Below, piece after piece: positions 10,176 to 58,402 of a stretch of DNA of 64,000 nucleotides. Source of the DNA: Flavisolibacter longurius (GTDB taxonomy: Bacteria; Bacteroidota; Bacteroidia; Chitinophagales; Chitinophagaceae); the NCBI GenBank assembly GCA_014163555.1, contig JACJGO010000012.1:1-64000 (forward strand), read 5' to 3'. The notes beneath the pieces are model-generated. The model made no database searches, was not told where the DNA came from, and saw nothing but the letters and a program-made list of their open reading frames with translations. Position numbers and translations under genes: made by a program. Position 1 is the stretch's first letter, and each line of letters begins with the position of its first letter.

Positions 10176-10207
10176 AGCAATAGGCAATCGGCAATTTGCA
10201 ATAGGCA
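10176..10207. repeat. Period-7 degenerate repeat after the receptor gene
   Basis: About five heptamers of the form aGCAAT/AGGCAAT/CGGCAAT/TTGCAAT/AGGCAAA begin almost at the stop codon. No inverted partner is seen. Confidence 0.6.
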
Positions 10208-10284
10208 AAGGAACCTGACAGCTTAAAAAATTTTGAAACAAGAAACTATGTCCTAGAAACCAGTTTAAAACAGTCATAAAAAAC

Positions 10285-10362
10285 CAACTCACTCATGAGT
10301 AATGAGTGGTCAATGAAAAAAAACGACTACCACTCACCACTCACCATTCACCATTCACAAAA
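10285..10362. repeat. Period-7 repeat forming an imperfect hairpin
   Basis: The left arm has units TGAGTAA, TGAGTGG, TCAATGA. The right arm has four units of CCACTCA/CCATTCA. The reverse complement of the right arm matches the left arm in 7-nt register, with about 20 nt of A-rich loop. It lies between the receptor and GIN genes. Confidence 0.6.
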
Positions 10363-10374
10363 TCAATCTAAAAA

Positions 10375-11085: not shown

Positions 11086-11116
11086 GCAAGCGTTTTTTCT
11101 ATTTCCAATTCGAACC

Positions 11117-11143
11117 GACCCGCAGTTCCCTGCGGGTCTTTTT
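11117..11143 (+). terminator. Rho-independent terminator
   Basis: A perfect 9-bp stem GACCCGCAG/CTGCGGGTC (11117-11125 with 11130-11138) has a TTCC loop and is followed by TTTTT, 31 bp after the GIN-protein stop. Confidence 0.88.
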
Positions 11144-11215
11144 ATCGTTTGTTGGCTGCAGGGTATCTTGTGCAGCGTTCGGTAGCCGTGGGCTGTCAAC
11201 TTTGAAACCTGGTTT

Positions 11216-11590
11216 ATGAAAATAGGGCCCTGCCTGCTTTTATTACTCGCTGTATCGTGTACAAAACAAGACCTCGAGTCGAATTGCAGCACCCTGAAAG
11301 AAGGGATAACCGGCAATGATGTCGCCAGGGTAAAGCTTTCCATTTCCCGGTTTATTGCTGCCTTGCCTAATAAAAAGCATACAAACGAAAACCTACTGGC
11401 AATGACGCAAAAAATAGAAGCGGGTTGTTCGGTTATCGTTGATGCCGTTTGTTTTAGCTGCATCTATACCCTTCCAGCCCAAAGTGAGATTTCGGTATCA
11501 TTTTCTTTAAGTGGAACAACGGTGAGGAAAGTGATTGATATTTCAGAAACGGATGCAAAGGAAATGAGGTTTGTAAACATGCATGATTGA
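11216..11590 (+). CDS. Small hypothetical lipoprotein
   Basis: This 124-aa protein has a short lipoprotein signal (LLLLLAVSC, Cys15). The mature part has further cysteines (ESNC, AGCS, DAVCFSC) that could form disulfides. The C-terminal half looks beta-rich (SEISVSFSLSGTTVRKVIDI). I do not recognise a family. It stands alone after a terminator, and the next gene starts 120 bp further on. Confidence 0.6.
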   Translation: MKIGPCLLLLLAVSCTKQDLESNCSTLKEGITGNDVARVKLSISRFIAALPNKKHTNENLLAMTQKIEAGCSVIVDAVCFSCIYTLPAQSEISVSFSLSGTTVRKVIDISETDAKEMRFVNMHD

Positions 11591-11709
11591 TGAATGGCGA
11601 AGACGCATCGTAAGACAACATGTAAAACTTTAGTGCCATTGCTGATGTTTCAATGGCGATGGCTTGCACCAGTAATAAAAAGAACAATCGTCAGTTAATA
11701 ATAAAGCAC

Positions 11710-12162
11710 ATGGATCTGAAAACAGAGATGCAACTTCTGCAGGCAAATGACCTGGAAAAACTGGATAGCCTGATTTCCGTTTTTGAGACCGTCTTTGAAA
11801 TGAAAGATTTCCGGCGGCCAGGTACTGCGCATTTGCAGGCCCTGCTCAAAAAAGAAACCTTTTTTGCCGTAGTAGCCCTGTACGAAGGCAAGATCGTTGC
11901 CGGGTTGACCGTGTATGTGCTCGATCAGTATTATTCCGAAAAGCCGCTGGCCTATCTCTACGACCTGGCCGTTTTGCCCCATTACCAGCGCAGGGGTTTG
12001 GGCAAATCTCTCATAGCCTTCACCAGAGAGCTTTGCAGGCTGAAAGGATTTGAAGAACTGTTTGTGCAAGCAGATGTACCCGACCAGTATGCGCTCGACT
12101 TCTACCGGTCCACAAGACCCACCAACGAAGAAGAGGTGATTCACTTTTACTACACCTTGTAA
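11710..12162 (+). CDS. AAC(3)-I-like GNAT acetyltransferase
   Basis: This 150-aa GNAT enzyme transfers acetyl from acetyl-CoA to an amine. The order of motifs follows the aminoglycoside 3-N-acetyltransferase I group: an N-terminal SLISVFETVFE helix, FFAVVALYEGKIVAGLTVYVL, LYDLAVLPHYQRRGLGKSLI (acetyl-CoA loop QRRGLG), then LFVQADVPDQYALDFYRS and EEVIHFYY at the C-terminus. The frame is open from 11653, but the ATG at 11710 matches the family N-terminus. The family match is good; whether it acts on aminoglycosides cannot be told, because the group includes chromosomal enzymes with other substrates. Confidence 0.8.
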   Translation: MDLKTEMQLLQANDLEKLDSLISVFETVFEMKDFRRPGTAHLQALLKKETFFAVVALYEGKIVAGLTVYVLDQYYSEKPLAYLYDLAVLPHYQRRGLGKSLIAFTRELCRLKGFEELFVQADVPDQYALDFYRSTRPTNEEEVIHFYYTL

Positions 12163-12335
12163 ATTCGATTTCCTGCTGAATAGCCTGTTTCGCTGCTAAT
12201 GGTGTCCCGGCAGCCCTGTTCGACAACCGGAACACCACAGGAAGGTGGACCTGTAAATAGTGGGAACTTGCAACTACAACAAAAGCATGCAATTTGGCAG
12301 GTACATGCCACTCTTCTTACAAGCACTTTGCTGCC

Positions 12336-41655: not shown

Positions 41656-44600
41656 ATGAATGTGACTGCTCTTTTGAAGGCTCGCCTTCTTCTTGTGCTT
41701 TGTAGTAGTACTTTCCTATTGTTTTTCTCTCTGCCGGCGCAGGCGGCTGGCAATCCTGATGGGAAACCTTCTTCAAACGCAAAAACGTACAAAGCCGATG
41801 TACGCATTTCCGGTACGGTTCGCGACCGTTTGGGTGTGCCTATACAAGGCCTGACCGTGCAAGTGGCCGGTAACCCTGCACTGTCCACTACAACAGATTC
41901 GGCCGGTAAATTCTCCATTACAATTCCCGAAAATTCCAGCCTGCTTTTTACAGCGGTTGGTTACAAGCCACAGACCATCGGCGTCAACTCCCTGAACATG
42001 GACGTTGTGATGGATGCCGCGGAAGGTAACATGCAGGAGGTGGTTGTAGTGGGTTTTGGTAAAGCCAAAAAAATCAGCATAGTGGGGGCGCAAGCCAGTG
42101 TAGAGGTGGAAGAGCTGAAACAGCCGGTGGCTAACTTAAGTGCCACGCTTTCCGGCCGTATTGCTGGTGTCATTGGTGTGCAACGGTCGGGTTTGCCGGG
42201 TGAAAACGCTGCCGACCTTTGGATTCGCGGTATCTCTACGTTTGGCAACAACCCTTCCGGTCCGTTGATCGTGATCGATGGGGTACAAAACCGCGGGCTG
42301 AACTCATTTGACCCGGAGGATATAGCTTCCTTTACCATTCTGAAAGACGCTAACGCTTTGGCGGTATATGGTGTGGCCGGTGCCAATGGTGTGATCCTGA
42401 TCACCACCAAACGCGGCCGCCTTGGTAAGCCATCCATCCTGCTGAATTATAACCAGGGTATAACGGCATTCACCAAATTGCCTCAACTGACAGACGGACC
42501 TACTTATATGCGCCTTCGCAACGAAGCGCAAATTGCTTCCGGCCTGGCGCCTGAGTATTCGGATGCAGCCATTGATGCTACCGTGAAAGGCGACCAGCCT
42601 TACCTCTATCCAAACGTAAACTGGATGAAGGAAATCTTCAACGATTACGGAACAAACCGCCGCGCCAACTTTAGCGTTCGCGGTGGTGCCGAAGCGGCCC
42701 GGTACTACGTGTCGTTTGCTTATTACGATGAAACAAGCCTGCTGAAAACTGATGGCTTGCAGACCTATAACAGCGATACCCGGTTCCGGCGGTTGAATGT
42801 AACCACCAACCTGGATATGGACTGGACCAGAACCACCAAGGTAGAACTGGGTATACAGGGAAATATCTCGAAGCTGAATCTTCCGGCCATCAATGGCGAT
42901 GCGAATATCAACCCGCAGGAAATCTTCCGTCAGGTGATGCAGACCACACCTATCCTGTATCCGCTCATGTATCCCGGCAACCTGGTACCTGGTATAAACG
43001 TAGCCAATGCCCAGAAGAGTCCTTACGAAATGCTCACCCAGATGGGGTTTGTCAATACGTTCAACAACCAGTTGTACACCAACCTCCGGGTGACGCAGGA
43101 TTTGGGAATGCTTACCAAAGGGCTCTCGGTTTACGGCCTGTATTCCTATGACATTTTTAACGTGCAGCGCATTATCCGCAGCCGTCAGCGCAATACATGG
43201 CGGATTGATCCTTCCAATCCTTACAATGCCGATGGCACCGTTAACCTGTTACCCGTTATTACCAGTGGTACCGAGAACCTGGGTTATGGCAACGCCAACG
43301 GCGGCAACCGCCAGAACTATTTTGAAGCGGCTATTAACTACAACCGCCGTTTTGGTAACGACCACAGTGTGACTGGTTTGTTATTGTATAATCAACGCGA
43401 AAACATCAATGCTTCTGCCGGTGATGTTATTGCTTCACTGCCTTCCCGTCTGCAGGGCTATGTAGGCCGTTTGACCTACGGTTACAAAGAGAAGTATTTT
43501 GTGGAAGGCAACTTCGGTTACAACGGTTCAGAAAACTTCGCCCCCGAAAGACGCTACGGCTTTTTCCCTTCAATAGGGGTTGGCTGGGTTGTATCCAGCG
43601 AACGTTTCTTTGACCCGCTTTTAAATGTTGTTCAGTTCCTGAAGCTCCGTTACTCCAACGGTAATGTGGGTTCGGCCAGTGGTGGCCGCCGCTTCGGCTT
43701 CCTGACCGTGGTAGCCGACAATGCCGCCGGCTTTACCTTTGGTAACAACAACGCAAACGATGTTAACAGAGGATTCGGCGGCGTTCGGGTTACCGATTAT
43801 GGTTATCCGATTGGCTGGTCCACTTCACACAAACAAAACCTGGGTATCGAGTTCAAAACATTCAGATCCCGCCTGTCAGTTATTGTAGACTTTTTCAAAG
43901 AGCATCGTACAGACGTACTGATCCAACGCGGAAGCCTTCCTGCTTTCGTTGGTCTCAACAACGTACCGTTTGCCAGTGTGGGTGTGATTGACAACGCCGG
44001 TGTAGATGGTTCTATTGAAGGCGGCGGTTTTAAACTGGGTGCCTTTACGCTTGATCTGCGGGCTACGTTTACCTATAACCGTGACAAGCTGATTGAAAAC
44101 GATGCACCGGTGCAGCCGCACCCTTACCTGGAGCGCAGAGGGTTTAACGTATTGTCGAATTACGGGTATGTAGCAGAAGGCCTGTTCCAATCGCAAAGAG
44201 AGATTGACAACCATGCCGACCAGACACCGCTGGGCGGTCGTCCAAGACCCGGTGATATCAAGTACAAAGACCTGAACGCCGATGGTTTGATCAACAACCT
44301 TGACATCCGTCGCATTGGTAATGGCGACGTTCCCAACCTGGTTTGGGGTGGCGGGTTTAACCTTAGTTACAAATCCTTCTACTTCGGCGCCTTCTTCCAG
44401 GGAATCAATGGTGCCCACCGCCAGTTGGGTGGCGACGGTATCATTCCGTTTAACAACAGCACCGGTGCAGAGCGTAGCAACCTGTTTGCCGTTGCACAGG
44501 ATCGCTGGACAGAAGAGAACCCAAATCCCAATGCGTTTTATCCCCGCTTAGCCTACGGCAACGGACCGAACAAAAACAATTCGGTTGCCAGTTCCTGGTG

Positions 44601-44829
44601 GATAAAAGACATTGACTTTGTACGCTTGAAGACCGTTGACCTTGGCGTTAACCTGCCTTCAAAATGGGTGCAAAAAGCCGGCTTCCGCAATGCCAAGATC
44701 TATGGCCAGGGCTTGAACCTGCTGTACTGGAGCCCATTCAAGCTTTGGGATCCTGAGTTGAATACCGGTAACGGTTCCGCTTACCCCAACACCCGCAATT
44801 TCACAATTGGCATTCAAGCCACCCTCTAA
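41656..44829 (+). CDS. susC: SusC/RagA-family TonB-linked outer-membrane protein
   Basis: This 1057-aa outer-membrane importer of oligosaccharides or glycopeptides works with the SusD lipoprotein encoded next. A signal peptide (FFSLPAQA, about residue 33) precedes a carboxypeptidase-regulatory-like domain (ISGTVRDRLGVPIQGLTVQV, about 50-130), then the SusC junction VVVGFGKAKKISIVGAQASV, which varies from the usual GYG motif. The plug has LSGRIAGVIGVQRSGLPGEN and WIRGISTFGNNPSGPLIVID. The barrel ends FTIGIQATL. It heads the susC-susD-DUF1735 operon, 16 bp before susD. Confidence 0.95.
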   Translation: MNVTALLKARLLLVLCSSTFLLFFSLPAQAAGNPDGKPSSNAKTYKADVRISGTVRDRLGVPIQGLTVQVAGNPALSTTTDSAGKFSITIPENSSLLFTAVGYKPQTIGVNSLNMDVVMDAAEGNMQEVVVVGFGKAKKISIVGAQASVEVEELKQPVANLSATLSGRIAGVIGVQRSGLPGENAADLWIRGISTFGNNPSGPLIVIDGVQNRGLNSFDPEDIASFTILKDANALAVYGVAGANGVILITTKRGRLGKPSILLNYNQGITAFTKLPQLTDGPTYMRLRNEAQIASGLAPEYSDAAIDATVKGDQPYLYPNVNWMKEIFNDYGTNRRANFSVRGGAEAARYYVSFAYYDETSLLKTDGLQTYNSDTRFRRLNVTTNLDMDWTRTTKVELGIQGNISKLNLPAINGDANINPQEIFRQVMQTTPILYPLMYPGNLVPGINVANAQKSPYEMLTQMGFVNTFNNQLYTNLRVTQDLGMLTKGLSVYGLYSYDIFNVQRIIRSRQRNTWRIDPSNPYNADGTVNLLPVITSGTENLGYGNANGGNRQNYFEAAINYNRRFGNDHSVTGLLLYNQRENINASAGDVIASLPSRLQGYVGRLTYGYKEKYFVEGNFGYNGSENFAPERRYGFFPSIGVGWVVSSERFFDPLLNVVQFLKLRYSNGNVGSASGGRRFGFLTVVADNAAGFTFGNNNANDVNRGFGGVRVTDYGYPIGWSTSHKQNLGIEFKTFRSRLSVIVDFFKEHRTDVLIQRGSLPAFVGLNNVPFASVGVIDNAGVDGSIEGGGFKLGAFTLDLRATFTYNRDKLIENDAPVQPHPYLERRGFNVLSNYGYVAEGLFQSQREIDNHADQTPLGGRPRPGDIKYKDLNADGLINNLDIRRIGNGDVPNLVWGGGFNLSYKSFYFGAFFQGINGAHRQLGGDGIIPFNNSTGAERSNLFAVAQDRWTEENPNPNAFYPRLAYGNGPNKNNSVASSWWIKDIDFVRLKTVDLGVNLPSKWVQKAGFRNAKIYGQGLNLLYWSPFKLWDPELNTGNGSAYPNTRNFTIGIQATL

Positions 44830-44845: not shown

Positions 44846-46651
44846 ATGAAACGAATACTGACATTAAGCTTGCTGGGCGCTGTTATCCTGCTGTCCTCCT
44901 GCAAAAAATACCTTGATACGGTTCCCGACAACGTTCTTTCACTGGACGATGTGTTTAAGTCCCGTACCAACATTGACCGTTATCTCGCCAATATTTACAA
45001 TACCCTGCCCAACGAGCACAACCAGCGCTTTGAAGGCAACGAAAACAGCGGCGTATGGATTGGCGCTTCCGACGAGGGAAAATTCAACTGGGACTTCAAC
45101 TACACGACGGTGATGAACAAAAGCGCTTGGAGTAATACCGACGGCCAGGTGCGCAACTACTGGGTGAATTATTACCGTGCCATCCGCAATGCCACGGACT
45201 TTATCCAGCGCATCGATGGCGCCACCGCTACGGACTTTAGTGCCCAGGAAAAAACCCGGTACAAAGGCGAAGCAAGAGCCCTCCGTGCTTTCTACTACTA
45301 CCAATTGATGCGTATTTACGGACCCGTGGTATTGGTGGGTGATGAACTGGCTGAAGTGACCGCCGGTGCCGGTGACTTAAACAAGGCACGGTCTTCGTTC
45401 GACGAATGTACAGCCTATGTAGTAAGTGAATTTGACAAGGCATACGATGAAATTGGTGCACCGTTACCAAACGCTTCTTCCGGTCGCTTTACCCAGCGGG
45501 TGGTAAAGGCTTACAAGGCGCAAACCTTGTTCCTGGCAGCCAGCCCCCTTTTCAATGGCAATCCCGACTATGCAACACTGAAAAACGACGATGGCAAACA
45601 GCTCATCAGCCAAACCGTTGATGTATCAAAATGGACAAAGGCGGCTGAGGCTTACCGTGAGTTCTTTGCAGCCTATGTGCCGGGTGTTGATCTTTACCGC
45701 GTAGCGGATCCCGATCCGTTTAAAGCCGCTTACCTTTCTACCCGGGACGTGATCCTTGTAAGCTGGAACAAAGAATGGATTTTCGGCCGGGCCAACTCCG
45801 GCACTTTTATGCGCTACGACCGTACGCCCTACCATGATGGGACCACCGGTAACCAAAGAGGCGCTGGTGCCAACGGTGCCACGCAGGCACAGGTGGATGC
45901 TTACTTTATGGCAAACGGCCTGCCTATCTCAGACCCAGCTTCGGGCTATCAGACATCAGGCTTTTCCAACTTTCAATCGCCGGATGATGTGGCTCCCCGC
46001 AGCACCTTCAACCAGTGGGTAAACCGTGAACCGCGTTTTTACGTGGGCATCACCTACACCAACAGGACCTGGCTTTACCGCGATGCCAATGGGAATCCCA
46101 TCATCACCAACATGGAGTTTTCCGGTAATTCCGGCCGCTCCCGCAGCACCTCCGACGTATCACCTACCGGTTACATTATTCGCAAAAACGTGTACCAGGA
46201 CGATGCTACCCGCGGTAGCCTTTACCTACGCCTCGGCGAGATGTACTTAAGCTATGCCGAAGCGTTGAACGAGTCGAACCCCAATGACCCCGATATCCTG
46301 AAATATGTGAACCTCATTCGCGAAAGGGCCGGCATTCCACGGTATGGCGCCGGTGCCAATCCTTTACCGGTTCCTGCAGGACAAGACGCCATGCGGGCTG
46401 CTATCCGTGCCGAACGCAGGTCGGAACTGGCGTTTGAAAATGTACGCTACTTCGACACCCGCCGCTGGCGCATTGCGGAGCAAACAGATGCCGGTCCGTT
46501 TTATGGCATGGACATGACAAAGAATGGTACTGCTTTTTACAACAAAACCTTGCTGGAAACCCGCATTTTCAGAAAACGTGATTACCTGTTTCCCATCCCT
46601 GCCAATGAAGTATTGAGCGTTCCGGCTATCAAACAAAACACCGGCTGGTAG
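44846..46651 (+). CDS. susD: SusD/RagB-family surface glycan-binding lipoprotein
   Basis: This 601-aa lipoprotein (ILLSSC, Cys19) forms the lid of the SusC transporter and binds substrate at the cell surface. Family features are CKKYLDTVPDN after the lipid anchor, the TPR-rich RGEARALRAFYYYQLMRIYG stretch written here as GEARALRAFYYYQLMRIYG (about residue 150), LRLGEMYLSYAEALNESNP, IRAERRSELAFENVRYFDTR and the C-terminal LFPIPANEVLSVPAIKQN. It lies in an operon with susC and the DUF1735 lipoprotein. Confidence 0.95.
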   Translation: MKRILTLSLLGAVILLSSCKKYLDTVPDNVLSLDDVFKSRTNIDRYLANIYNTLPNEHNQRFEGNENSGVWIGASDEGKFNWDFNYTTVMNKSAWSNTDGQVRNYWVNYYRAIRNATDFIQRIDGATATDFSAQEKTRYKGEARALRAFYYYQLMRIYGPVVLVGDELAEVTAGAGDLNKARSSFDECTAYVVSEFDKAYDEIGAPLPNASSGRFTQRVVKAYKAQTLFLAASPLFNGNPDYATLKNDDGKQLISQTVDVSKWTKAAEAYREFFAAYVPGVDLYRVADPDPFKAAYLSTRDVILVSWNKEWIFGRANSGTFMRYDRTPYHDGTTGNQRGAGANGATQAQVDAYFMANGLPISDPASGYQTSGFSNFQSPDDVAPRSTFNQWVNREPRFYVGITYTNRTWLYRDANGNPIITNMEFSGNSGRSRSTSDVSPTGYIIRKNVYQDDATRGSLYLRLGEMYLSYAEALNESNPNDPDILKYVNLIRERAGIPRYGAGANPLPVPAGQDAMRAAIRAERRSELAFENVRYFDTRRWRIAEQTDAGPFYGMDMTKNGTAFYNKTLLETRIFRKRDYLFPIPANEVLSVPAIKQNTGW

Positions 46652-46685: not shown

Positions 46686-47630
46686 ATGAAAAGAAATAAA
46701 GTATTCCCTTTCGCCACTCTTTTCGCCGGCATCTGCGTTGCATTAAGTTGCAACAAGCCGAAAGATGTGGTACTGGAAAATGAAGGCTCTATCTATATGC
46801 CGCAGGCAGCCGGTACCCGGTCGGTTGTTGGTCTGCAATTATCAACAAAGCCACAGGAGGTAGCCTTTGGCGCTGCGTATGGCGGTTTGGAATATTCCAA
46901 AGCAGAAAATGCCGTGACATTTAAGCTGGATACCAATCTTGTGGCCACGTACAATGCGCAGAACGGCACGGCTTACAAGATTTTGCCGGATAGTGTGTAC
47001 ACCTTGTCAGGCTTGAGCTCTGTCATTCGTGCCGGTGCCACGTCCTCCGATCCGCTGTTGCTGAATGTTGCCACCAGCCGTATGCGATTTGGTGTACGGT
47101 ATATGTTGCCGATAACGCTTGTCAGTGCAGGCACTGGTGTTATTAACCCACAATTGCAAACGACCTTTTTCCGGTTCGACACCATTCTTCGTAAATCTGT
47201 TGATGTAACGGGCCAAGGTACACTTGGCGTCAGCAACGAAAACGGAGGTGGGGCAACCGCTGGGGAAGGGTCTCCTAAGTTGGTGGATGGTGACGTCAAT
47301 ACAAAATACCTGTATAATTATGTGGCGAATAGTTGGTTTGAATTGAAATTTCCAACAGCTGTAGCAGTAGGAGCGTACACCTTCACTTCTGCCAATGACG
47401 CCTCCACCCGTGATCCCAAAAACTGGACCCTGCAAGGCTCGAATGATGGCACCAACTGGACCGTCATCGATACGCGGGTAGATGAGAGTTTTGTTTCGCG
47501 GTTTCAAACCAAACGCTATGAAATTGCAGGCACGCCGGCTGCTTATACACAGTACAGAGTCGTTGTATCAGCGAATAGCGGGAGTTCACTCTTCCAGATG
47601 GCTGAATGGCGTATGTTCCGGTATGAATAA
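46686..47630 (+). CDS. Lipoprotein with DUF1735 and discoidin (F5/8 type C) domains
   Basis: This 314-aa lipoprotein (ICVALSC, Cys22) has a DUF1735/BT_3987-like N-terminal domain (about residues 35-160: EVAFGAAYGGLEYSKAENAV, VRYMLPITLVSAGTGVINP). A C-terminal F5/8 type C discoidin-like carbohydrate-binding domain follows (about 180-314: SPKLVDGDVNTKYLYNYVAN, WTLQGSNDGTNWTVID, YTQYRVVVSANSGSSLFQMA). It is the third gene of the susCD operon and probably a surface glycan-binding protein. A perfect terminator follows. Confidence 0.88.
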   Translation: MKRNKVFPFATLFAGICVALSCNKPKDVVLENEGSIYMPQAAGTRSVVGLQLSTKPQEVAFGAAYGGLEYSKAENAVTFKLDTNLVATYNAQNGTAYKILPDSVYTLSGLSSVIRAGATSSDPLLLNVATSRMRFGVRYMLPITLVSAGTGVINPQLQTTFFRFDTILRKSVDVTGQGTLGVSNENGGGATAGEGSPKLVDGDVNTKYLYNYVANSWFELKFPTAVAVGAYTFTSANDASTRDPKNWTLQGSNDGTNWTVIDTRVDESFVSRFQTKRYEIAGTPAAYTQYRVVVSANSGSSLFQMAEWRMFRYE

Positions 47631-47944: not shown

Positions 47945-50911
47945 ATGGACATGAAAAACACAAAACCGTTCTTACTGTTGTTGGCTTTGGTAACAGCCAT
48001 GGCAGGACGTGCACAATTGGTAACAAACGTTTCCGACCCGGTGGAATGGGTGAACCCGTTAATGGGAACAGACTCTAAACCTTCGCTCTCTAACGGCAAT
48101 ACCTACCCTTCAATTTGCGTTCCCTGGGGCATGAACTTCTGGACACCGCAAACTGGTAAGATGGGAGATGGCTGGGCCTATACCTATGCTTCGGATAAAA
48201 TCCGGGGCTTTAAGCAAACCCACCAGCCCTCGCCCTGGATGAACGACTACGGCCAGTTTTCCATTATGCCGGTAACCGGTAAGTTAAAGTGCAAAGAAGA
48301 CGACCGGGCAAGCTGGTTCTCGCACAAGGCAGAAGTGTCCAAACCTTATTACTACAGCGTGTACCTGGCCGATGCCGATGTGACCACAGAAATTACGCCG
48401 ACGGAAAGAGCGGCCCAGTTTCGCTTTACCTTTCCCAAGGCCGATAGCTCTTACATTGTGATCGATGCTTTCGACCGCGGCTCCTATGTAAAGATCATTC
48501 CTTCCGAAAGAAAGATCGTTGGCTACAGCAGTCGTTATAGTCGTGGCCCGCTGAAGAACTTCAAGAATTATTTTGTTATCTATCTCGATAAAGATTTTTC
48601 TTTTTCAAGGGCCTGGAACGGCAACGGCTTGCTGGCCGATTCGGTGGAAACAACCGCCAACCATGCCGGTGCTGCCATTGGATTTAAAACGGTGAAAGGA
48701 GAGAAGGTGCACCTGAAAGTGGCGTCTTCTTTTATCAGCATTGAGCAGGCGGATTTAAACCTGAAACGTGAACTGGCGGGTGATAATTTTGATGCAACCA
48801 GTCGTAAAGCCAAAGAAGCCTGGAACAAGCAGCTTTCCAAGTTGCAGGTGGAAGGTGGTTCGGTTGACCAGACCCGCACCTTCTATTCTTGTTTGTACCG
48901 TGCCTTACAGTTCCCGCACAAACTATACGAGATGGATGCAACCGGTAAAATGCTGCACTGGAGCCCTTACACCGGTGAGATCAAACCCGGTTATATGTTT
49001 GCCGGTACCGGCTTTTGGGACACGTTCCGTGCCCTTTATCCCTTCCTCAATTTTGCTTTTCCCGACATTAACCGCGAAATGCAGGAAGGCCTGATCAACG
49101 ATTACAAAGAAGGCGGCTGGCTGCCCGAATGGAGCAGTCCGGGTTATGCCAACATTATGATCGGCAACAACTCGGCTTCCGTGGTATCCGATGCCTACAT
49201 CAAAGGGCTGCGTGGCTATGACATTAACGCGCTTTACGAAGCCCTGTTGCATGGCGCCAACAACGAAGGCCCGATGACGGCTGTTGGCCGTGCCGGTGTA
49301 CGGTTTTACAACGACCTCGGTTATGTGCCGTACGATGTGCGGGTGAATGAAAATGCAGCCAGGACGTTGGAATATGCCTATGACGATTTTACCATTTACC
49401 AGTTGGCAAAAGTGCTGAATCGTCCGAAAGAAGAACAGGAACTGTATGCCACCCGGTCGCTGAACTACCGCCACCTGTATGACAAGGAAACAAAACTGAT
49501 GCGACCCAGATTAAGGAGCGGTGAGTTCTTAAAAGATTTCAACCCGTTGAAATGGGGTGATGCGTTTACTGAAGGCAACAGCTGGCATTACTCCTGGAGT
49601 GTGTTCCAGGACGTGGCGGGACTGCGTGACCTGATGGGTGGCAATGCGGCCTTTATCGGTATGCTGGATTCTGTTTTCTCCCAACCACCGCATTTTGACG
49701 AAAGCGGCTATGGTGGTGTGATTCACGAGATACGCGAAATGCAGATCGCCAACATGGGGCAGTATGCACATGGCAACCAGCCCATTCAGCACATGATCTA
49801 TTTGTACAACTACGGCGGTCAGCCCTGGAAGGCGCAATACTGGGTTCGCGAAAGCTTAAACCGGTTGTACAAGGCCACACCGGATGGGTATTGCGGCGAT
49901 GAAGACAACGGCCAGACTTCGGCCTGGTATGTGTTTTCGGCCATGGGTTTTTACCCCGTGACCCCGGGTACGAACCAGTATGTAATGGGTGCACCGTTGT
50001 TCAAAAAAATTACGGTAACGCTGCAGAACGGCAAAAAGTTGGTGATCAATGCGCCAAACAATTCCGATGCCAATCGCTATGTACAAAGCGTCACTTTAAA
50101 TGGAAGGCCCTGGACGAAAAACTGGCTGCCGCATGATGAATTGCAAAAAGGTGGTGTGTTGAATTTTGTGATGGCTGCTACACCGAATAAACAGCGCGGC
50201 ACTGATGAAGCCAGTGCACCGTACTCATTCTCGAAAGACGATGTGGCCATGTACAACCGGGTGAAAGACAGGAAGCCTGAGGCAAAATTGCAGAATTATA
50301 AAAGACCCGATACCATAACCAAAGACGGACTGACACTCATCTTCCGCGACGAGGAAAGCACCATCAATGCGGCCTTGAAACAACGGCTGGTAGATGCTTA
50401 TTTTATGCAGTATCCCAAGCTCATTTCCAAATACAACAGCGAGAGCCCCAAAAAGGTGACATTCTTTATTGATCCCACCTATTCCGGCGTTGCCGAAGCA
50501 GGTGGTTCCACCGTACGGTTTAACCCGGCCTGGTTTGATAAAAATCCCGAAGACCTTGACGTGGTAACACATGAAGTGATGCACCTGGTGCAGGGTTATG
50601 GGTACCGTGGTGTACCCGGCTGGGTAACCGAAGGCATTGCCGATTATGTGCGGGCTACGGAAGGGTTTAATAACGAAAAGGCGAATTGGAGCATGCCTGC
50701 GCTGAAACCCGATCACAAGTACACCAGCGCTTACCGCATTACTGCCCGTTTTTTTGTGTGGATCACGCAGAAATACAACAAGGATTTTGTGAAGTTGTTG
50801 GACAATGCAGCCCGCAAACGCACCTATTCCGATGCAACCTGGACGGAACTGACCGGTAAGAATGTGGACACCTTGTGGCAGGAATATGTAGCCAATCCGG
50901 CCATTCAATAA
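47945..50911 (+). CDS. GH92 alpha-mannosidase-like enzyme fused to a BSP metallopeptidase domain
   Basis: This 988-aa secreted protein (signal ending AMAGRAQ) has residues about 30-760 as a GH92 enzyme: VNPLMGTDS, SNGNTYPSICVPWGMNFWTPQ in part (NTYPSICVPWGMNFW), FWDTFRALYPFL, GQTSAWYVFSAMGFYPVTPG. The motif that reads GNEPSH in the other GH92 here is GNQPIQ (residues 610-615), so the usual catalytic-acid Glu is Gln612. Residues about 795-985 form a plant basic-secretory-protein-like (PF04450-type) zincin domain with HEVMH at 876-880 and TEGIADY (Glu896). The first gene after the susCD terminator, it is followed by a strong terminator. Confidence 0.88.
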   Translation: MDMKNTKPFLLLLALVTAMAGRAQLVTNVSDPVEWVNPLMGTDSKPSLSNGNTYPSICVPWGMNFWTPQTGKMGDGWAYTYASDKIRGFKQTHQPSPWMNDYGQFSIMPVTGKLKCKEDDRASWFSHKAEVSKPYYYSVYLADADVTTEITPTERAAQFRFTFPKADSSYIVIDAFDRGSYVKIIPSERKIVGYSSRYSRGPLKNFKNYFVIYLDKDFSFSRAWNGNGLLADSVETTANHAGAAIGFKTVKGEKVHLKVASSFISIEQADLNLKRELAGDNFDATSRKAKEAWNKQLSKLQVEGGSVDQTRTFYSCLYRALQFPHKLYEMDATGKMLHWSPYTGEIKPGYMFAGTGFWDTFRALYPFLNFAFPDINREMQEGLINDYKEGGWLPEWSSPGYANIMIGNNSASVVSDAYIKGLRGYDINALYEALLHGANNEGPMTAVGRAGVRFYNDLGYVPYDVRVNENAARTLEYAYDDFTIYQLAKVLNRPKEEQELYATRSLNYRHLYDKETKLMRPRLRSGEFLKDFNPLKWGDAFTEGNSWHYSWSVFQDVAGLRDLMGGNAAFIGMLDSVFSQPPHFDESGYGGVIHEIREMQIANMGQYAHGNQPIQHMIYLYNYGGQPWKAQYWVRESLNRLYKATPDGYCGDEDNGQTSAWYVFSAMGFYPVTPGTNQYVMGAPLFKKITVTLQNGKKLVINAPNNSDANRYVQSVTLNGRPWTKNWLPHDELQKGGVLNFVMAATPNKQRGTDEASAPYSFSKDDVAMYNRVKDRKPEAKLQNYKRPDTITKDGLTLIFRDEESTINAALKQRLVDAYFMQYPKLISKYNSESPKKVTFFIDPTYSGVAEAGGSTVRFNPAWFDKNPEDLDVVTHEVMHLVQGYGYRGVPGWVTEGIADYVRATEGFNNEKANWSMPALKPDHKYTSAYRITARFFVWITQKYNKDFVKLLDNAARKRTYSDATWTELTGKNVDTLWQEYVANPAIQ

Positions 50912-51064: not shown

Positions 51065-51577
51065 ATGAAAAACTTACTGTATAGCTTTTGTCTTTCCGCA
51101 GTAGCCCTCTCTGCATGTTCTTCGGTAAAAACTTCCGGCGCAAAAACGGCAACTGCAACGTCAGCTGGTCAGGAAGCTATAACGGAATACCTGTGTAACC
51201 GTACGGTAAAATATTACATCGAAAAGTCCATCATTACAACTGAAACCGGTGTAGAGCGGGAAGACAACACGGCAGTTGAAATAACTGTAAATCCTAATGA
51301 TGGCCAATTCTGGTTAAAAGCAACGCTAGAGAATAGAGAGAAGTTAGACAAAATGCGCCTTACATTAGACAGATGTAACCTGGTAGCGGGTATGACAAGC
51401 GGTGACGCAGTATATGCTATTGCTGGCGAATACCGTGTTGACGAAGAAAAAACCATAGAAAAGAAAGGCACACTGCGTATTGATGCTAATAATGGGGCGA
51501 CTGTTCTTACCATTCAGGATCCTGGCAAGGCAGGAAATATGAAGTTGATTGCGAAGCATTGGGAGGTGATGAACTGA
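51065..51577 (+). CDS. PUL-associated lipoprotein, copy 1 of a three-member domain family
   Basis: This 170-aa lipoprotein (AVALSAC, Cys18) has a mature domain of about 130 residues that is predicted all-beta. It has two conserved cysteines: LCNRTVKYYIEKS (about residue 44) and DRCNLVAGMTSGDAVYA (about 104). It ends NMKLIAKHWEVMN. The same domain occurs at the N-terminus of the next protein and again at 56726-57259, with the same cysteines, the iT-x-E-x-G step and the final HWE/RWE. I know no named family. All three copies lie inside the polysaccharide locus, so a role at the substrate or enzyme complex on the cell surface is inferred. Confidence 0.75.
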   Translation: MKNLLYSFCLSAVALSACSSVKTSGAKTATATSAGQEAITEYLCNRTVKYYIEKSIITTETGVEREDNTAVEITVNPNDGQFWLKATLENREKLDKMRLTLDRCNLVAGMTSGDAVYAIAGEYRVDEEKTIEKKGTLRIDANNGATVLTIQDPGKAGNMKLIAKHWEVMN

Positions 51578-51624: not shown

Positions 51625-53661
51625 ATGCAAAACAATGCTTTCCATCTAAAAATAAACTTCTTGTTGGTAAGCGTTACGTTTCCGTCGCGGATGCTTTTAT
51701 TGAGTTTGCCGGTAATGATGATGATTGCCTGTACTTCAGGGAGTCTCATAAATACTAAGACTGCGGTGGCAGAGGCGAATGCGCCGGAAGCCATGTGCAA
51801 CCAGATTGTTCGTTATCATATTGAGAAGGCCTTTGTAACGAATGAAAACGGAGGAGAAAAGGAAGACAACACGTCTGTTACGTTAACTGTTGTCCCCGGC
51901 GAAAACCATATGCTTTTGACGGATGTCAAAAGTGGCAAGACCCAAAAAACAGTAATGCAAACAAAAAGCTGTAGTCTGACAGCGGGAATGAAGAGCGGTA
52001 ATGCCGAATATGAATTTATAGAAACGGATCGACTGCCAGACGGAACCACAAGGGAAACAACCTTGCAAATTAAATTGCAGGCCAGCAATGGAGTGGTACA
52101 ATTTTCCTTTTTGGCTCTTGGAAAGAAGGGAGGAATGAAAGCAGCTGTCACCCATTGGGAGACGCTAAAAGAATTAGATAAAGAAGCAACAGTAGCAGAA
52201 AAGCCCGAAGCTTCAGATGGCGGCTGGAGCATCGATGCCAGCAGAAAAATATTCAGTAAAGACTCAATCGTAAAAGGGGATTACACACTCCTGTTTTATG
52301 TACAGTCGCCCAATTTTGACAGCACGCTAAAAAGACGGATGATAGAAACCTTTTTCAAAGTTTATCCAAAACAGGTGGCACACTACAACCCACAGGCTCC
52401 CAAAACAGTTGTTTTTTTAGTTGATCCAACTTACCAGGGTGTTGCCGCTGCACTTGGTAACATGGTGCGTTTCAGCCCGGAGTGGTTTGCCCAAAACCCG
52501 GAAGATATAGACGTGGTCACCCACGAGGTGATGCATGTGGTGCAGGGGTATAATTACGCCACAGTGCCCTTCTGGGTAACCGAAGGCATTGCCGATTACG
52601 GGAGGGCTGTTTATGGTGTCAACAATGAAAAAGCAAAGTGGGAATTGCTAAAGCCTTTTGCGCAAAGTCATTTCCAGGATGGCTATAAAATCACGGCCCG
52701 TTTTTTCGTTTGGCTGGAAGAGCAATACAAGGTAAAGTTTGTTAAAGATCTAAACGGGATTGCAGCTGCTGGTACTTATACGAACACTTTCTGGAATGCA
52801 AGGTTTAGCAAAAGTGTAGAAGAACTATGGGATGAATACCGTTTGGCAAATAACCTTGAGCCGCAGCCACCGACTGTTTCTAAAGTAAATCTAATTGTCA
52901 TCGACCAAGCGTTGGATAGTGTGCTGAAGGAATATGCAGCCAAGGATGCTCAGGTGAAGAACAAATTTGAGGTTTCCGGTGAAATGGTGTTCGGGCCGAA
53001 TGTTTTCCTACCTCCCAACTACACGGAGGGGAGAGGTGATTATCTCAGTTGGTATAGCCACCCAGCTTTTGCCGACAGGCGGCATACACTCATAAACCGA
53101 TCGGTTGGATCAGCCCTGAAATTTGCTTATGGAAATTCTAAAATGGCGGTTGTCTACGACTCTGCCAGGTTGTTTCCTGCACTTGACGAGACGATTTTTA
53201 AAAAGCGTTATTGCTTTGATATTATTGTGCCGGGAGAAAAGGAAGATGAACTTGGCAATATTTTCTTTGCCAAAATCAAAGAGCATTTTAAAATTACTAC
53301 ACGCATCGATTCCCTGGAACAAACAGTTCTTGTTTTAAAAAAAGTAGAGGGATTTGTATTTGCTGAACCGGATATGAAAGCATTTCAGAATAAAGCGAAT
53401 CCGGTTTACGAATTGTTTATGCAGGGGATTATGAATCCACACAGGCTCATTTTCAGCAAACTTAATTCATTTACATCACTGCCGATTATAGATGAAACTG
53501 GGTTGGTTAAAGCCTATGATTTCGGATTCCGCTCTGACAACAATGATGGGGTTTTAGCACATGGCACCGAAAGCAAAGAAGTTGCGGAACGTTTGAAACA
53601 GCACGGCTTGCGGCTGGAAAGAGCTATCCGGAAATACCCGGCACTGATCATATCACGCTAA
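51625..53661 (+). CDS. Three-module lipoprotein: PUL lipoprotein domain, BSP metallopeptidase, DUF3738-like
   Basis: This 678-aa protein has a lipoprotein-type signal (VMMMIAC, Cys36). Residues about 45-185 repeat the lipoprotein domain of the preceding gene (MCNQIVRYHIEKA, KSCSLTAGMKSGNAEYE, THWETLK). Residues about 205-415 are a BSP zincin domain (FLVDPTYQGVAAALGNMVRF, HEVMH at 300-304, Glu320 in TEGIADY), closely similar to the C-terminus of the GH92-BSP protein. Residues about 425-678 resemble DUF3738/TIGR03435 (LPIIDETGLVKAYDFGF, then ESKEVAERLKQHGLRLERAI). The active-site residues of the peptidase are intact. The DUF3738 assignment is the weakest part. Confidence 0.78.
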   Translation: MQNNAFHLKINFLLVSVTFPSRMLLLSLPVMMMIACTSGSLINTKTAVAEANAPEAMCNQIVRYHIEKAFVTNENGGEKEDNTSVTLTVVPGENHMLLTDVKSGKTQKTVMQTKSCSLTAGMKSGNAEYEFIETDRLPDGTTRETTLQIKLQASNGVVQFSFLALGKKGGMKAAVTHWETLKELDKEATVAEKPEASDGGWSIDASRKIFSKDSIVKGDYTLLFYVQSPNFDSTLKRRMIETFFKVYPKQVAHYNPQAPKTVVFLVDPTYQGVAAALGNMVRFSPEWFAQNPEDIDVVTHEVMHVVQGYNYATVPFWVTEGIADYGRAVYGVNNEKAKWELLKPFAQSHFQDGYKITARFFVWLEEQYKVKFVKDLNGIAAAGTYTNTFWNARFSKSVEELWDEYRLANNLEPQPPTVSKVNLIVIDQALDSVLKEYAAKDAQVKNKFEVSGEMVFGPNVFLPPNYTEGRGDYLSWYSHPAFADRRHTLINRSVGSALKFAYGNSKMAVVYDSARLFPALDETIFKKRYCFDIIVPGEKEDELGNIFFAKIKEHFKITTRIDSLEQTVLVLKKVEGFVFAEPDMKAFQNKANPVYELFMQGIMNPHRLIFSKLNSFTSLPIIDETGLVKAYDFGFRSDNNDGVLAHGTESKEVAERLKQHGLRLERAIRKYPALIISR

Positions 53662-53719
53662 TATTAAAAAATACGACATAAATCCATTGAATAAATACAG
53701 CGGAACTAAAAACACGAAA

Positions 53720-56038
53720 ATGAGTAAGTTGAAAATGAGGTGCCTGTCTTCTCTTTTGGCATTCCTGACAGTGTCCACTCAGGCCCAGAGCGTTCATAAG
53801 AATTACATTCAGTACGTCAACCCCTTTATCGGTACCGAAAAAATGGGTCATACCTATCCCGGTGCCACGGTGCCGTTTGGTGCGGTGCAACTCAGTCCCG
53901 ATACCGATACCATCCCCTATGAAGTAGCTGGCCGTTACAACAAAGACGTGTACAAGTATTGCGCAGGGTATCAGCACACCGACAAAACCATCGTGGGCTT
54001 CAGTCACACGCATTTCAGCGGCACGGGGCATTCTGATTTGGGGGATGTGCTGATCATGCCAACGGTAGGTGCATTGCAGCTGAATCCAGGCGTGGCCTCC
54101 GATCCGGCTTCGGGTTTCCGCTCTGCCTTTTCACACGACAACGAAAAAGCGGAGCCGAACTATTACCGCGTCAAGCTGGATGATGATAACATCGATGCGG
54201 AGATGACCACCACCACCAGGGTGGGCATGCATCGGTACACCTTCAACAAGGGCGGCCAGGGACATATCTTGCTCGATCTTGTTTCTGGTATCTATAATCA
54301 CAACAACAAAAACGTGTGGACCTTTGTCCGTGTAGAAAATGATACGTTAATTACCGGTTATCGCCAGACCAATGGCTGGGCCAAAACCCGGACGGTTTAT
54401 TTTGCCATTGCGCTTTCCAAGCCTTTCAAATCGTTTGGCTACCGCGATGCCGGCGGCAACAACATCTACCGTGGCTTTTGGGGCAAGTTCAATATCCGCA
54501 ACAACTTCCGCGAAATGATCGACCGGCAATTGCGAGCCTATTTCGACATGGATGTAAAAGATGGCGACCAGGTATTGCTGAAAGTGGCGCTATCTCCCGT
54601 GAGCACTGAAGGTGCACTGGCCAACATGCGGGCCGAAGTGCCGCATTGGAATTTTGACAAGGTAAAAAAGGCAGGCCAGGAGGAGTGGAACAAGATGCTT
54701 GGCCGCATCGATATGCAACCGATCGATGAAGCGGAAAGAATCAACTTTTACACGGCTATGTACCATGCCTTTTTAGGGCCCACGGTGTATGGTGATGTAG
54801 ATGGCCGGTACAAAGGGCTTGATCAGAATATTCATACCGCAAAAGGCTTTACCAATTACACAACCTTTTCACTTTGGGATACGTACCGTGCCCTGCACCC
54901 ACTGTTTACCATCATCAATACAAAACGCAACAGCGATATGGTTCGTTCTATGCTGGAGCATTACCGGCAAAGTGCCCACAGCATGCTGCCGGTATGGAGC
55001 CATTATGCCAACGAAAACTGGTGCATGATCGGGTACCACAGCGTGCCCGTGATTGCCGATGCGGTAATGAAAAGCGCCACTACCGTTGATGCACATGCGC
55101 TTTTGGACGCTTGTGTAACAACGGCCCGCAACCGGCAGTACGAAGGCCTGGAATGGTACATGCAGATGGGTTATGTGCCGGAAGATAAGAGCAGCAGTTC
55201 CGTTTCCAAAACGCTGGAATATGCCTACGACGACTGGTGCATTGCACAGATGGCAAAAAAGCTGGGACGAAAGGCCATATATGAGGAGTTCTTAAAGCGG
55301 TCGCAGTATTACAAGAATGTGTATGATGCGTCGACCGGTTTTATGCGGCCGCGCCTTGCCGATGGAAGCTTTAAAAAAGAGTTTGATGTGCTCAATACCC
55401 ACCAAGCCGGATTCATCGAAGGCAATGCCTGGAACTACAGCTTGTATGTGCCGCACGACCCCGCCGAAATGATTCGCATGATGGGCGGCAAAGAGCAATT
55501 TGCAGCGCACCTCGACTCCCTTTTTACCATGGACCTTCCGGATAAATATTTTGCCGAAACGGAAGACATTACCCGTGAAGGGATCATTGGCAACTATGTG
55601 CACGGCAACGAACCTTCGCACCACGTGGCTTATCTTTTCAACTGGACGGGCCATCCCTGGAAGACACAAGAAAAGGTGCGGATGATCATCCCGAAAATGT
55701 ACAAGCCCACGGTGGATGGACTGGGCGGAAACGATGACTGCGGGCAGATGAGCGCCTGGTATCTTTTCAGTGCTCTGGGCTTTTACCCGGTGGCACCCGC
55801 TTCCGGCGAATACAGCATCGGCAGCCCACTGGTAAAATCCGCGACCATCAAATTGGAAAACGGAAAACAGTTTTCCATTGAAGCCAAAAACCAAAGCAAG
55901 GAAAATGTGTATGTGCAGGGAGTAACCCTGAATGGTGTGCCGCTGAAAAAACCGGTTCTGCTTCACAGCGAGTTGATGAAGGGAGGGAAGATGGTGTTCC
56001 GGATGGGAGCAGCGCCGAACAAAACATTGTTCAACTAA
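53720..56038 (+). CDS. GH92 alpha-1,2/1,3/1,6-mannosidase
   Basis: This 772-aa secreted exo-mannosidase (signal ending TVSTQAQ) has the GH92 landmarks QYVNPFIGTEKMGHTYPGAT, FSHTHFSGTGHSDLGDV, FSLWDTYRALHPL, GNEPSHHVAYLFNWTGHPW (Glu631 in the usual catalytic-acid position), GNDDCGQMSAWYLFSALGFY and YSIGSPLVKSATI. GH92 enzymes are Ca-dependent and invert the anomeric centre of alpha-mannosides in N-glycans and fungal mannans. The ATG at 53720 leads directly into the signal peptide; an upstream TTG at 53687 is less likely. It lies 58 bp after the three-module protein. Confidence 0.95.
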   Translation: MSKLKMRCLSSLLAFLTVSTQAQSVHKNYIQYVNPFIGTEKMGHTYPGATVPFGAVQLSPDTDTIPYEVAGRYNKDVYKYCAGYQHTDKTIVGFSHTHFSGTGHSDLGDVLIMPTVGALQLNPGVASDPASGFRSAFSHDNEKAEPNYYRVKLDDDNIDAEMTTTTRVGMHRYTFNKGGQGHILLDLVSGIYNHNNKNVWTFVRVENDTLITGYRQTNGWAKTRTVYFAIALSKPFKSFGYRDAGGNNIYRGFWGKFNIRNNFREMIDRQLRAYFDMDVKDGDQVLLKVALSPVSTEGALANMRAEVPHWNFDKVKKAGQEEWNKMLGRIDMQPIDEAERINFYTAMYHAFLGPTVYGDVDGRYKGLDQNIHTAKGFTNYTTFSLWDTYRALHPLFTIINTKRNSDMVRSMLEHYRQSAHSMLPVWSHYANENWCMIGYHSVPVIADAVMKSATTVDAHALLDACVTTARNRQYEGLEWYMQMGYVPEDKSSSSVSKTLEYAYDDWCIAQMAKKLGRKAIYEEFLKRSQYYKNVYDASTGFMRPRLADGSFKKEFDVLNTHQAGFIEGNAWNYSLYVPHDPAEMIRMMGGKEQFAAHLDSLFTMDLPDKYFAETEDITREGIIGNYVHGNEPSHHVAYLFNWTGHPWKTQEKVRMIIPKMYKPTVDGLGGNDDCGQMSAWYLFSALGFYPVAPASGEYSIGSPLVKSATIKLENGKQFSIEAKNQSKENVYVQGVTLNGVPLKKPVLLHSELMKGGKMVFRMGAAPNKTLFN

Positions 56039-56634: not shown

Positions 56635-56725
56635 TTATATCCATTGATTTACCCCGCAGTGACGGCAAGTGGAATGGGCCGTGGGTTCAGAATGGATCTT
56701 GTCGTAAAATAAAAAGAAGGTGACG

Positions 56726-57259
56726 ATGATAACAATGGCTGTAAACAAGAAAGCAGGATGGGCGCCTGCATATATCATAATCCTTGTCATTGTGGCCTCC
56801 TGTTCGTCGGCAAAAAACAGTATGGGAAAAAGTGCAGTTGTACCTGCAATCCCAATGGCCCAAACAAGGAGCCAGGACCTTTGCAACCGCACGGTGCGCT
56901 ATTTCATAGACAAGGTACTCATTACGAATGATAACGGAAGTGAAAATGAGGTTGCTTTCAGTGGAACGTTGATAGTAGACCCAATGGGGCGAAAGATTAC
57001 AAATACCCGGACAGAGGGAAAAAGGGAAAGCACAGCGGAGCTAAACCTGGTAAATTGTATCCTCAGTGGTGATATGCAAAATGGCGAAGCGCTTTATGAG
57101 GTTGTGGAAAGTATTGAGCAGGAAAACGGAAATACAACAATACAACGGACCAATCTGAAAATCGAAGTTTTAAAAGGGGTGGTTAATCTGTCAGTTACTT
57201 CAGACAATAAAGCGGGTGGTGTGACAATGATAGCAACCCGGTGGGAGGTCGTGAATTGA
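56726..57259 (+). CDS. PUL-associated lipoprotein, copy 3 of the domain family
   Basis: This 177-aa lipoprotein (IILVIVASC) has the same domain as the gene at 51065 and the N-terminus of the gene at 51625: LCNRTVRYFIDKVLITNDNG, NCILSGDMQNGEALYE with the second conserved Cys, and the closing GGVTMIATRWEVVN. It is more divergent in the middle. The ATG at 56726 follows AAGAAGG with a 5-nt spacer; a GTG at 56720 is possible. It lies between the frameshifted gene and the GH43 gene. Confidence 0.75.
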   Translation: MITMAVNKKAGWAPAYIIILVIVASCSSAKNSMGKSAVVPAIPMAQTRSQDLCNRTVRYFIDKVLITNDNGSENEVAFSGTLIVDPMGRKITNTRTEGKRESTAELNLVNCILSGDMQNGEALYEVVESIEQENGNTTIQRTNLKIEVLKGVVNLSVTSDNKAGGVTMIATRWEVVN

Positions 57260-57367: not shown

Positions 57368-58402
57368 ATGAAGGTCAAAATTGCATTTTATAGTTTGCTG
57401 GCAATAATAGCTGCTTCCTGTGCTAACAAAACAGTGCCGCAATCCGATGGCAAGCAAACCTCCGGTAATCCCATCTTCCCCGGCTGGTATGCCGATCCCG
57501 AAGCGATCATGATCAGGGACAAGGCATGGGTCTTTCCCACGTTTTCAGCAGCGTACAGAAAACAGGTTTTTATGGATGCATTTTCCAGCAAAGACTTGGT
57601 GAACTGGACAAAACACGAACGCATTGTTGATACCGGCAGCATAAAATGGGCTTACATGGCCATGTGGGCGCCTTCCCTGGTACCGATGGACGGCAAGTAC
57701 TATCTTTTCTTTTCGGCTAACGATATACAAAGTGCTGCCCGCAGAAAAGCGACTGGAGATTCAAACCCGGTAGATGATACCTTGGGTGGTATTGGTATTG
57801 CCGTTGCCGACAAACCCGAAGGACCTTACAAGGATTACCTCGGCAAGCCACTCATCAACCAGTATTACAACGGTGCCCAACCGATCGACCAGACGGTGTT
57901 CCAGGATGTGGATGGACAGTATTATATTTTTTACGGTGGCTGGGGGCGGTGCAACGTCGGAAAATTAAATAAGGACTTTACCGGCCTGGTGCCCTTTGAA
58001 GACGGTAAGCTGGTAAAAGAAGTGACGCCCAAAGGTTACGTGGAAGGGCCTGTGATGTTTCGCAAAAACAACAAGTACTATTTCATGTGGTCGGAAGGCG
58101 GCTGGACCGGTCCCGATTACCGGGTGGCCTATGCTATTGCCGATTCGCCTATGGGACCCTTCGAACGTATCGGTACCATTCTGCAGCAGGATCCCAGCAT
58201 CGCTACCGGTGCTGGTCACCACTCAGTGCTGCAAGTTCCCGGTAAGGACGAATGGTACATTGTTTACCACCGCCGGCCCATACCCAACGAGGGTCGTGAC
58301 CACCGCGTGGTCTGCATCGACAAAATGGAGTTCGATGAAAAGGGCTTTATCAAGCCGGTTAAGATCACCAATGAAGGCGTGAAGAAGGTGAAGCTGAAGT
58401 AA
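57368..58402 (+). CDS. GH43-family glycosidase lipoprotein
   Basis: This 344-aa lipoprotein (IIAASC, Cys18) has a five-bladed propeller of the GH43/F type. The three acidic positions are visible: catalytic base Asp43 in FPGWYADPEAIM, the pKa-modulating Asp in AQPIDQTVFQDVDG, and the acid Glu in GYVEGPVMFRKNNKYY. GH43 enzymes release arabinofuranose, xylose or galactofuranose residues; the subfamily cannot be assigned by eye. Being last in the mannan-type locus, it may remove a furanosyl or other side chain that blocks the mannosidases. A hairpin of 7-nt repeats begins at its stop codon. Confidence 0.88.
   Translation: MKVKIAFYSLLAIIAASCANKTVPQSDGKQTSGNPIFPGWYADPEAIMIRDKAWVFPTFSAAYRKQVFMDAFSSKDLVNWTKHERIVDTGSIKWAYMAMWAPSLVPMDGKYYLFFSANDIQSAARRKATGDSNPVDDTLGGIGIAVADKPEGPYKDYLGKPLINQYYNGAQPIDQTVFQDVDGQYYIFYGGWGRCNVGKLNKDFTGLVPFEDGKLVKEVTPKGYVEGPVMFRKNNKYYFMWSEGGWTGPDYRVAYAIADSPMGPFERIGTILQQDPSIATGAGHHSVLQVPGKDEWYIVYHRRPIPNEGRDHRVVCIDKMEFDEKGFIKPVKITNEGVKKVKLK

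Follow-up and report, generated by a model that had tools for sequence, protein, structure and literature searches.

PUL72 (BT3983-BT3994) of B. thetaiotaomicron acts on high-mannose N-glycan and, in the account given in PMC11180146, includes SusC, SusD and two or more GH92 enzymes, one of them BT3990-type; according to the same account, release of the glycan takes place at the surface, ahead of import. Its GH92 enzyme BT3990 is an α-1,2-mannosidase, in which the active-site description in PMC10167667 assigns E533 as the acid, D642/D644 as the base and W88 together with H584-E585 to the +1 subsite. NnGH92 of Neobacillus novalis is likewise a GH92 α-1,2-mannosidase and a multi-domain protein; the passages describing it in PMC10167667 name CBM32 or CBM-like additional domains and mention no peptidase. 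Basic secretory proteins (BSP, PF04450) are represented by plant BSP/PR-17 proteins such as PRp27, which carry an HExxH motif, act as apoplastic defence proteins and appear with the BSP domain alone in the domain drawings of PMC9322406. In the sections of that source dealing with activity, barley Hv-PR17 is cited as inactive on both casein and gelatin, and PRp27 is described as labelled by a hydroxamate probe in dependence on its HExxH, its immune effect being independent of that motif; active-site substitutions among BSPs are listed in a section of PMC3650047. No report on the activity of a bacterial BSP was found in excerpts of the open-licence PubMed Central literature, and a search of the same literature found neither a fusion of GH92 or another mannosidase to a peptidase nor a link between BSP and a PUL. 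A paper on GxGYxYP, retrieved under the topic of GH92, metallopeptidases, PULs and N-glycans, makes no BSP link in its excerpted text, and the combination of "basic secretory" with mannosidase returned, by title, plant studies.

The window, a 64,000-nucleotide stretch of DNA from Flavisolibacter longurius, contains a locus of ten proteins in the order SusC, SusD, PF08522+F5/8 protein, GH92-BSP fusion, small lipoprotein-like protein, second BSP protein, second GH92 (GH92b), two small proteins and GH43 (Table 1). It thus has the SusC/SusD pair and the GH92 enzymes which a high-mannose N-glycan PUL requires, and its PF08522 domain is one that Pfam named after BT_3987 of PUL72. In six further loci (L062, L063, L067, L068, L069, L071) GH92-BSP and GH92b likewise come after relatives of SusC, SusD and the PF08522 protein, some of these loci having extra small genes in between, while L064, L065 and L070 differ. 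L063 (6373-7311) and L071 (4448-5482) encode a protein of 312-344 aa, with no Pfam match, after the PF08522-like protein and ahead of GH92-BSP, a position at which the window carries no gene.

Table 1. Features of the locus and of the GH92-BSP fusion protein, with positions in the window.
Feature	Positions	Strand	Basis or remarks
SusC/RagA outer-membrane transporter	41656..44829	+	domain search; relatives
SusD-family lipoprotein	44846..46651	+	domain search; relatives
PF08522 + F5/8-type lipoprotein-like protein, probable surface glycan-binding; no GH18 domain found	46686..47630	+	domain search; relatives
GH92-BSP fusion protein, 988 aa	47945..50911	+	signal-peptide-like N-terminus (by eye only); no lipobox cysteine
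GH92 N-terminal and catalytic domains, residues 35-744, BT3990-type	48047..50176	+	Pfam, TIGR01180, 2wvx (residues 32-765)
Glu543 = BT3990 catalytic acid Glu533	49571..49573	+	alignment to 2wvx; roles from the active-site description in PMC10167667
Asp652 and Asp654 = BT3990 Asp642/Asp644 (base)	49898..49906	+	alignment to 2wvx; roles from the active-site description in PMC10167667
Interdomain linker, residues 766-788	50240..50308	+	identity 92% to L071, 58, 29 and 38% to L072, L074, L075
BSP (PF04450) gluzincin-like domain, residues ~789-987	50309..50905	+	Pfam; profile limits via L071; predicted fold
HEVMH zinc-binding motif, residues 876-880	50570..50584	+	sequence
Glu896, expected third zinc ligand (putative role)	50630..50632	+	invariant in 53 rows of alignment A2
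Second BSP protein, 678 aa: unknown N-terminal domain + BSP + DUF3738-like (weak) C-terminus	51625..53661	+	
Second GH92 (GH92b); α-1,2 triad Trp and His-Glu not kept	53687..56038	+	pairwise alignment
GH43-family protein, end of locus	57368..58402	+	relatives in L062, L063, L071

The sequence-only reading had described a full-length GH92 followed by a BSP domain in one chain, and this was borne out. The frame at 47945-50911 (+) reads through 988 codons with zero internal stops in translation, and the Pfam search places PF17678 at residues 35-262 (E 3.9e-64, 217.1 bits against a cut-off of 34.5), PF07971 at 268-744 (E 2.7e-173, 577.7 bits against 24.6) and PF04450 at 828-981 (E 2e-23, 83.7 bits against 23.8, model positions 53-207 of 207), so that a BSP domain does follow residue 790. 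Residues 32-765 align with BT3990 (PDB 2wvx) at 1117 bits, and W98, E543, H594-E595, D652 and D654 correspond to W88, E533, H584-E585, D642 and D644 of BT3990, the acid, the base and the α-1,2 triad being common to both proteins. With these key residues kept, the GH92 part is predicted to be a BT3990-type α-1,2-mannosidase. BT3990 itself is without a BSP domain, as its solved chain (744 residues) stops about where the BSP part of the window protein starts.

An HEVMH motif at 876-880 and Glu896, both noted from the sequence beforehand, were found at these positions; the motif is the sole HExxH of the fusion and the glutamate lies within WVTEGIADY. In the fusions of L071, L072, L074 and L075 the match to a profile of 17 BSP domains, of which the window supplied two, begins at residue 785-789, and since the L071 fusion equals the window protein in length, the limits of the window domain are placed at about 789-987. 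T-H-E-x-M-H and W-x-T-E-G-I-A-D are invariant across the 53 rows of alignment A2, partly by construction, because some rows were found with patterns including parts of these motifs. Among 142 BSP domains above 150 bits (122 distinct, from two locus sets sharing some genomes), HExxH-x(13-17)-TE occurs in 130, and the remaining 12, judged by eye, have HExxH and [TIS]EG with another spacing or letter. The 85 BSP ORFs of the named set also keep HExxH and EG, which proves less as this set was found with motif patterns. The family set of 57 domains, by comparison, was found by the Pfam profile alone with no motif requirement, and HExxH with the following EG is kept in all 57 above 150 bits (seven by eye). 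This conservation is notable against the substitutions listed among BSPs in the section of PMC3650047 cited above, and argues against the view that the BSP domain would be a binding or structural module with an unused metal site. Such a role, in keeping with the statement in PMC10167667 that non-catalytic additions to NnGH92 were important to its structural integrity, is in our judgement very improbable.

The predicted fold of the BSP domain (pLDDT 92.3) has M30 lugdulysin and M1-type chains as its best solved neighbours, with seven matches at E <= 0.001 and partial overlap. A sequence profile found no solved BSP relative among PDB chains, and phmmer with the BSP domain against solved chains returned five weak rows with unrelated names. 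An HExxH and a downstream glutamate on a zincin-like fold are consistent with a gluzincin of clan MA, in which E896 would serve as a ligand. M1 aminopeptidases are frequent among the fold matches listed, and plant BSPs have been suggested to act on specific peptides or small molecules in the part of PMC9322406 that cites Hv-PR17 as inert on casein and gelatin. Both observations would suit an enzyme of narrow specificity, one that for example frees the residue beside a glycosylated Asn or hydrolyses a small amide and digests no protein. We regard this as improbable, the fold similarity being partial, with a TM score by query length of at most 0.64 among the 50 matches listed. A model of the whole fusion (pLDDT 81.7, pTM 0.74) is of too low a certainty for the relative position of the two sites to be read from it.

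An assembly or frameshift artefact is ruled out by full-length, stop-free fusions of 985-989 aa in L071 (Flavisolibacter longurius), L072 (Cnuella takakiae), L074 (Lacibacter luteus) and L075; no stop separates the two parts in the window frame or in these four relatives translated whole. The closest fusion among the named loci (the best 80 of 498) is that of Flavisolibacter longurius, with 96% identity. Compared with L071, dN/dS is 0.021 for GH92, 0.021 for BSP and 0.025 for the linker (24 codons); compared with L072 the values are 0.033, 0.043 and 0.278 (24 codons), at a high dS (2.4 for GH92). Towards L074 and L075 dS is saturated, so that the comparison yields no ratio. Identity of the linker (residues 766-789) is 92% to L071 and 58, 29 and 38% to L072, L074 and L075. 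These coding-sequence comparisons point to strong purifying selection on both domains among close relatives, which together with the unbroken fusions in other genera argues against an assembly error.

As had been noticed before, a second peptidase copy stands two genes away in another architecture (51625-53661, with only 51065-51577 in between), its BSP domain covering residues 231-405 (Pfam, E 6e-19). A recent duplication of BSP within the locus is not supported, the two copies being 49% identical and on separate branches of the BSP tree. GH92b retains a Glu and one Asp, and in pairwise alignment Gly, Glu and Asp replace the triad Trp, His and Glu; for this reason GH92b likely acts on another linkage. 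Several smaller observations were made in and around the locus. A lipoprotein-like domain of about 160 aa with no Pfam match occurs in three copies (51065-51577, 51709-52167 and 56720-57259) that are 29-35% identical; a search of 58 genomes found it in just two, the window's own and G269, and one G269 copy is directly downstream of a BT3990-type GH92 (C88). The C-terminus of the second BSP protein (about 52860-53661) has a weak DUF3738/TIGR03435 likeness below the cut-offs. One L071 protein (9463-10626) carries half a BSP domain (52-132) and then a whole one (184-382).

Genomes of the same family, 294 in all, were used to assess how frequent the fusion is. A PF04450 search gave 70 places in 56 genomes, or 59 places in 49 genomes once the 11 lowest-scoring ones, at no more than 26.9 bits, were left out; 57 BSP ORFs were mapped from these, the window fusion being removed as a duplicate and one G039 place falling under the score limit. 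Seven of the 57 are GH92-BSP and one is BSP-GH92, 32 have a GH92 within 500 bp, three have one within 5 kb and 14 have none, the last number perhaps being overcounted as 24 of 56 loci cover only about 1.5 kb on each side. With the window protein there are 58 BSP ORFs, eight of them GH92-BSP and one BSP-GH92, and the 32 others within 500 bp of a GH92 include the second BSP of the window. By genome, GH92-BSP occurs in 8/294 and BSP-GH92, with the other GH92, in 1/294, in agreement with the proposal that GH92 and BSP in one chain are unusual, though the combination is not unique. Searched at E <= 1e-250, the BT3990-type GH92 (GH92a) turned up at 103 places, spread over 95 of the 294 genomes. A strong BSP and GH92a occur together in 47 genomes, BSP only in two, GH92a only in 48 and neither in 197 (Fisher p 3e-25, kinship ignored). 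The 49 BSP-bearing genomes have 3-18 GH92 each, from which chance adjacency within 500 bp is estimated at about one per cent or less. The idea that the peptidase module is a selected part of this locus gains support from this neighbourhood and from the repeated fusion.

A named set, biased in that it consists of the best 80 of 498 loci by similarity to the window BSP, holds 85 BSP ORFs, with five GH92-BSP (one cut short by a contig end), one BSP-GH92, 47 with GH92 within 500 bp, four within 5 kb and 28 with none, the GH38 fusion described below being among these 28. Class-wide, PF04450 matched in 25/395 genomes (22 over the cut-off), and a phylum-wide search with the window BSP domain matched in 11/395, frames near 1000 aa being present only in the window's genome and G008. 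The fusion is therefore rare, yet part of a wider BSP/GH92 pattern. A strong BSP lies within 3 kb at 29 of the 103 GH92a places, the eight fused ones included. The other 74 speak further against a structural role of BSP, and they also count against the two-activity reading developed below.

GH92a, BSP and GH92b frequently follow each other in this order on one strand, other orders being present as well. In the line of the window and in others BSP forms the C-terminal part of a GH92a chain; in L070/L123, whose proteins are of one kind, it stands N-terminal to GH92b. The Tannerella MAG locus L142 has it N-terminal to a GH38 α-mannosidase in a 1434-aa BSP-GH38-F5/8 chain (7917-12221), encoded downstream of SusC- and SusD-sized frames (judged by size alone). 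The GH92-BSP fusion may reflect mere gene order and co-expression, adjacent operon genes for GH92a and BSP having merged with no gain from the linkage itself and both serving the same glycoprotein diet. A merger of this kind needs little, since the two are separate same-strand genes at most 500 bp apart in many genomes, and the linker is short and differs between genera. The variety of partners and orders (GH92a-BSP, BSP-GH92b, BSP-GH38), kept across genera, is less easily accounted for in this way, and we consider the explanation rather unlikely.

By architecture rather than by tree, fusion of BSP to α-mannosidases arose more than once. In a BSP tree of 68 hand-picked rows, with bootstrap not settled, a single clade (100/98) unites the window with seven other fused rows; the L065 fusion groups apart from it, next to a Paenibacillus row (98/86), and L064 has no resolved position. 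A single clade of all ten fused rows gave p-AU 0.147, by which a single origin is not rejected; the value is 0.397 without L065 and 0.027 without L064, both subsets having been picked after seeing the tree. The GH92a tree rejects a single origin (12 rows, p-AU 8.9e-6), being a quick tree in which several rows are one genome under two locus ids. As the two trees conflict on whether the window and Lacibacter fusions group together, swapping of tails is possible. The trees appear equally compatible with gain and with fission of GH92-BSP. The architecture is real, conserved and new, with convergent relatives, and both domains come from known families, the second with a putative function. Further BSP chains carry a thioredoxin-like domain (L127, 7926-9683) or a ricin-type lectin (L147, Paenibacillus alvei, 7899-9017), and in L078 (6375-8612), next to GH92a, BSP follows an N-terminus of about 540 aa with no Pfam or PDB match.

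In contrast to PUL72 as described in PMC11180146, the window locus is without a GH18 endoglycosidase and has BSP domains and a GH43 instead; a Pfam search found no surface GH18 endo-β-N-acetylglucosaminidase among its ten proteins. The whole genome has one GH18 in a PF00704 search, on another contig and nearest to chitinases, and no GH85 match, although divergent GH18 endoglycosidases may escape the PF00704 search. Compared with the surface release in PUL72, the fact that these genome searches (PF00704, GH85) reveal no evident endoglycosidase suggests that glycopeptides may be imported. The genome also encodes one PNGase F-like protein (G000:C53:288616-292591), its domain match and that of another GH92 being some 2.2 kb apart, and this protein could free glycans before import.

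We give about an even chance to the reading of a periplasmic enzyme with two activities, a mannosidase and a putative gluzincin peptidase, whose SusC/SusD locus would serve the use of high-mannose N-glycans or of N-glycopeptides. The GH92 domain would remove α-1,2-linked mannose from the imported substrate and GH92b of the same locus would probably remove another linkage, while the BSP domain, as a gluzincin-type zinc hydrolase, would trim the peptide part of the imported glycopeptide. The fusion would keep both activities together on a substrate with both bond types. The evidence ties BSP to α-mannosidases, mannosylated glycopeptides being its presumed substrate. Against this reading, BSP also acts elsewhere, as no GH92 is near 14/57 BSP ORFs of the family set and 28/85 of the named set (best 80 of 498 loci); the inertness of Hv-PR17 on casein and gelatin, the HExxH-independent immune effect of PRp27 and the PNGase F-like protein weigh on the same side. 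A more far-reaching and distinctly tentative version, which we doubt more than we favour, is that BSP and α-mannosidases form a glycopeptide-processing unit replacing the endoglycosidase. Whole N-glycopeptides would then be imported, trimming and cutting would be coupled in one enzyme, and the peptidase would perhaps select glycosylated peptides; BSP would represent a new glycopeptidase class of environmental and insect-gut Bacteroidota, reached via several independent fusions.

PF04450, for which excerpts of the open-licence PubMed Central literature gave no established substrate, is here tied to N-glycan degradation, a link that rests on neighbourhood and on fusions to two α-mannosidase families. 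This gives a testable guess at the substrate of bacterial BSPs, namely mannosylated peptides, and suggests that some Bacteroidota may attack both the glycan and the peptide of glycoproteins with one enzyme.
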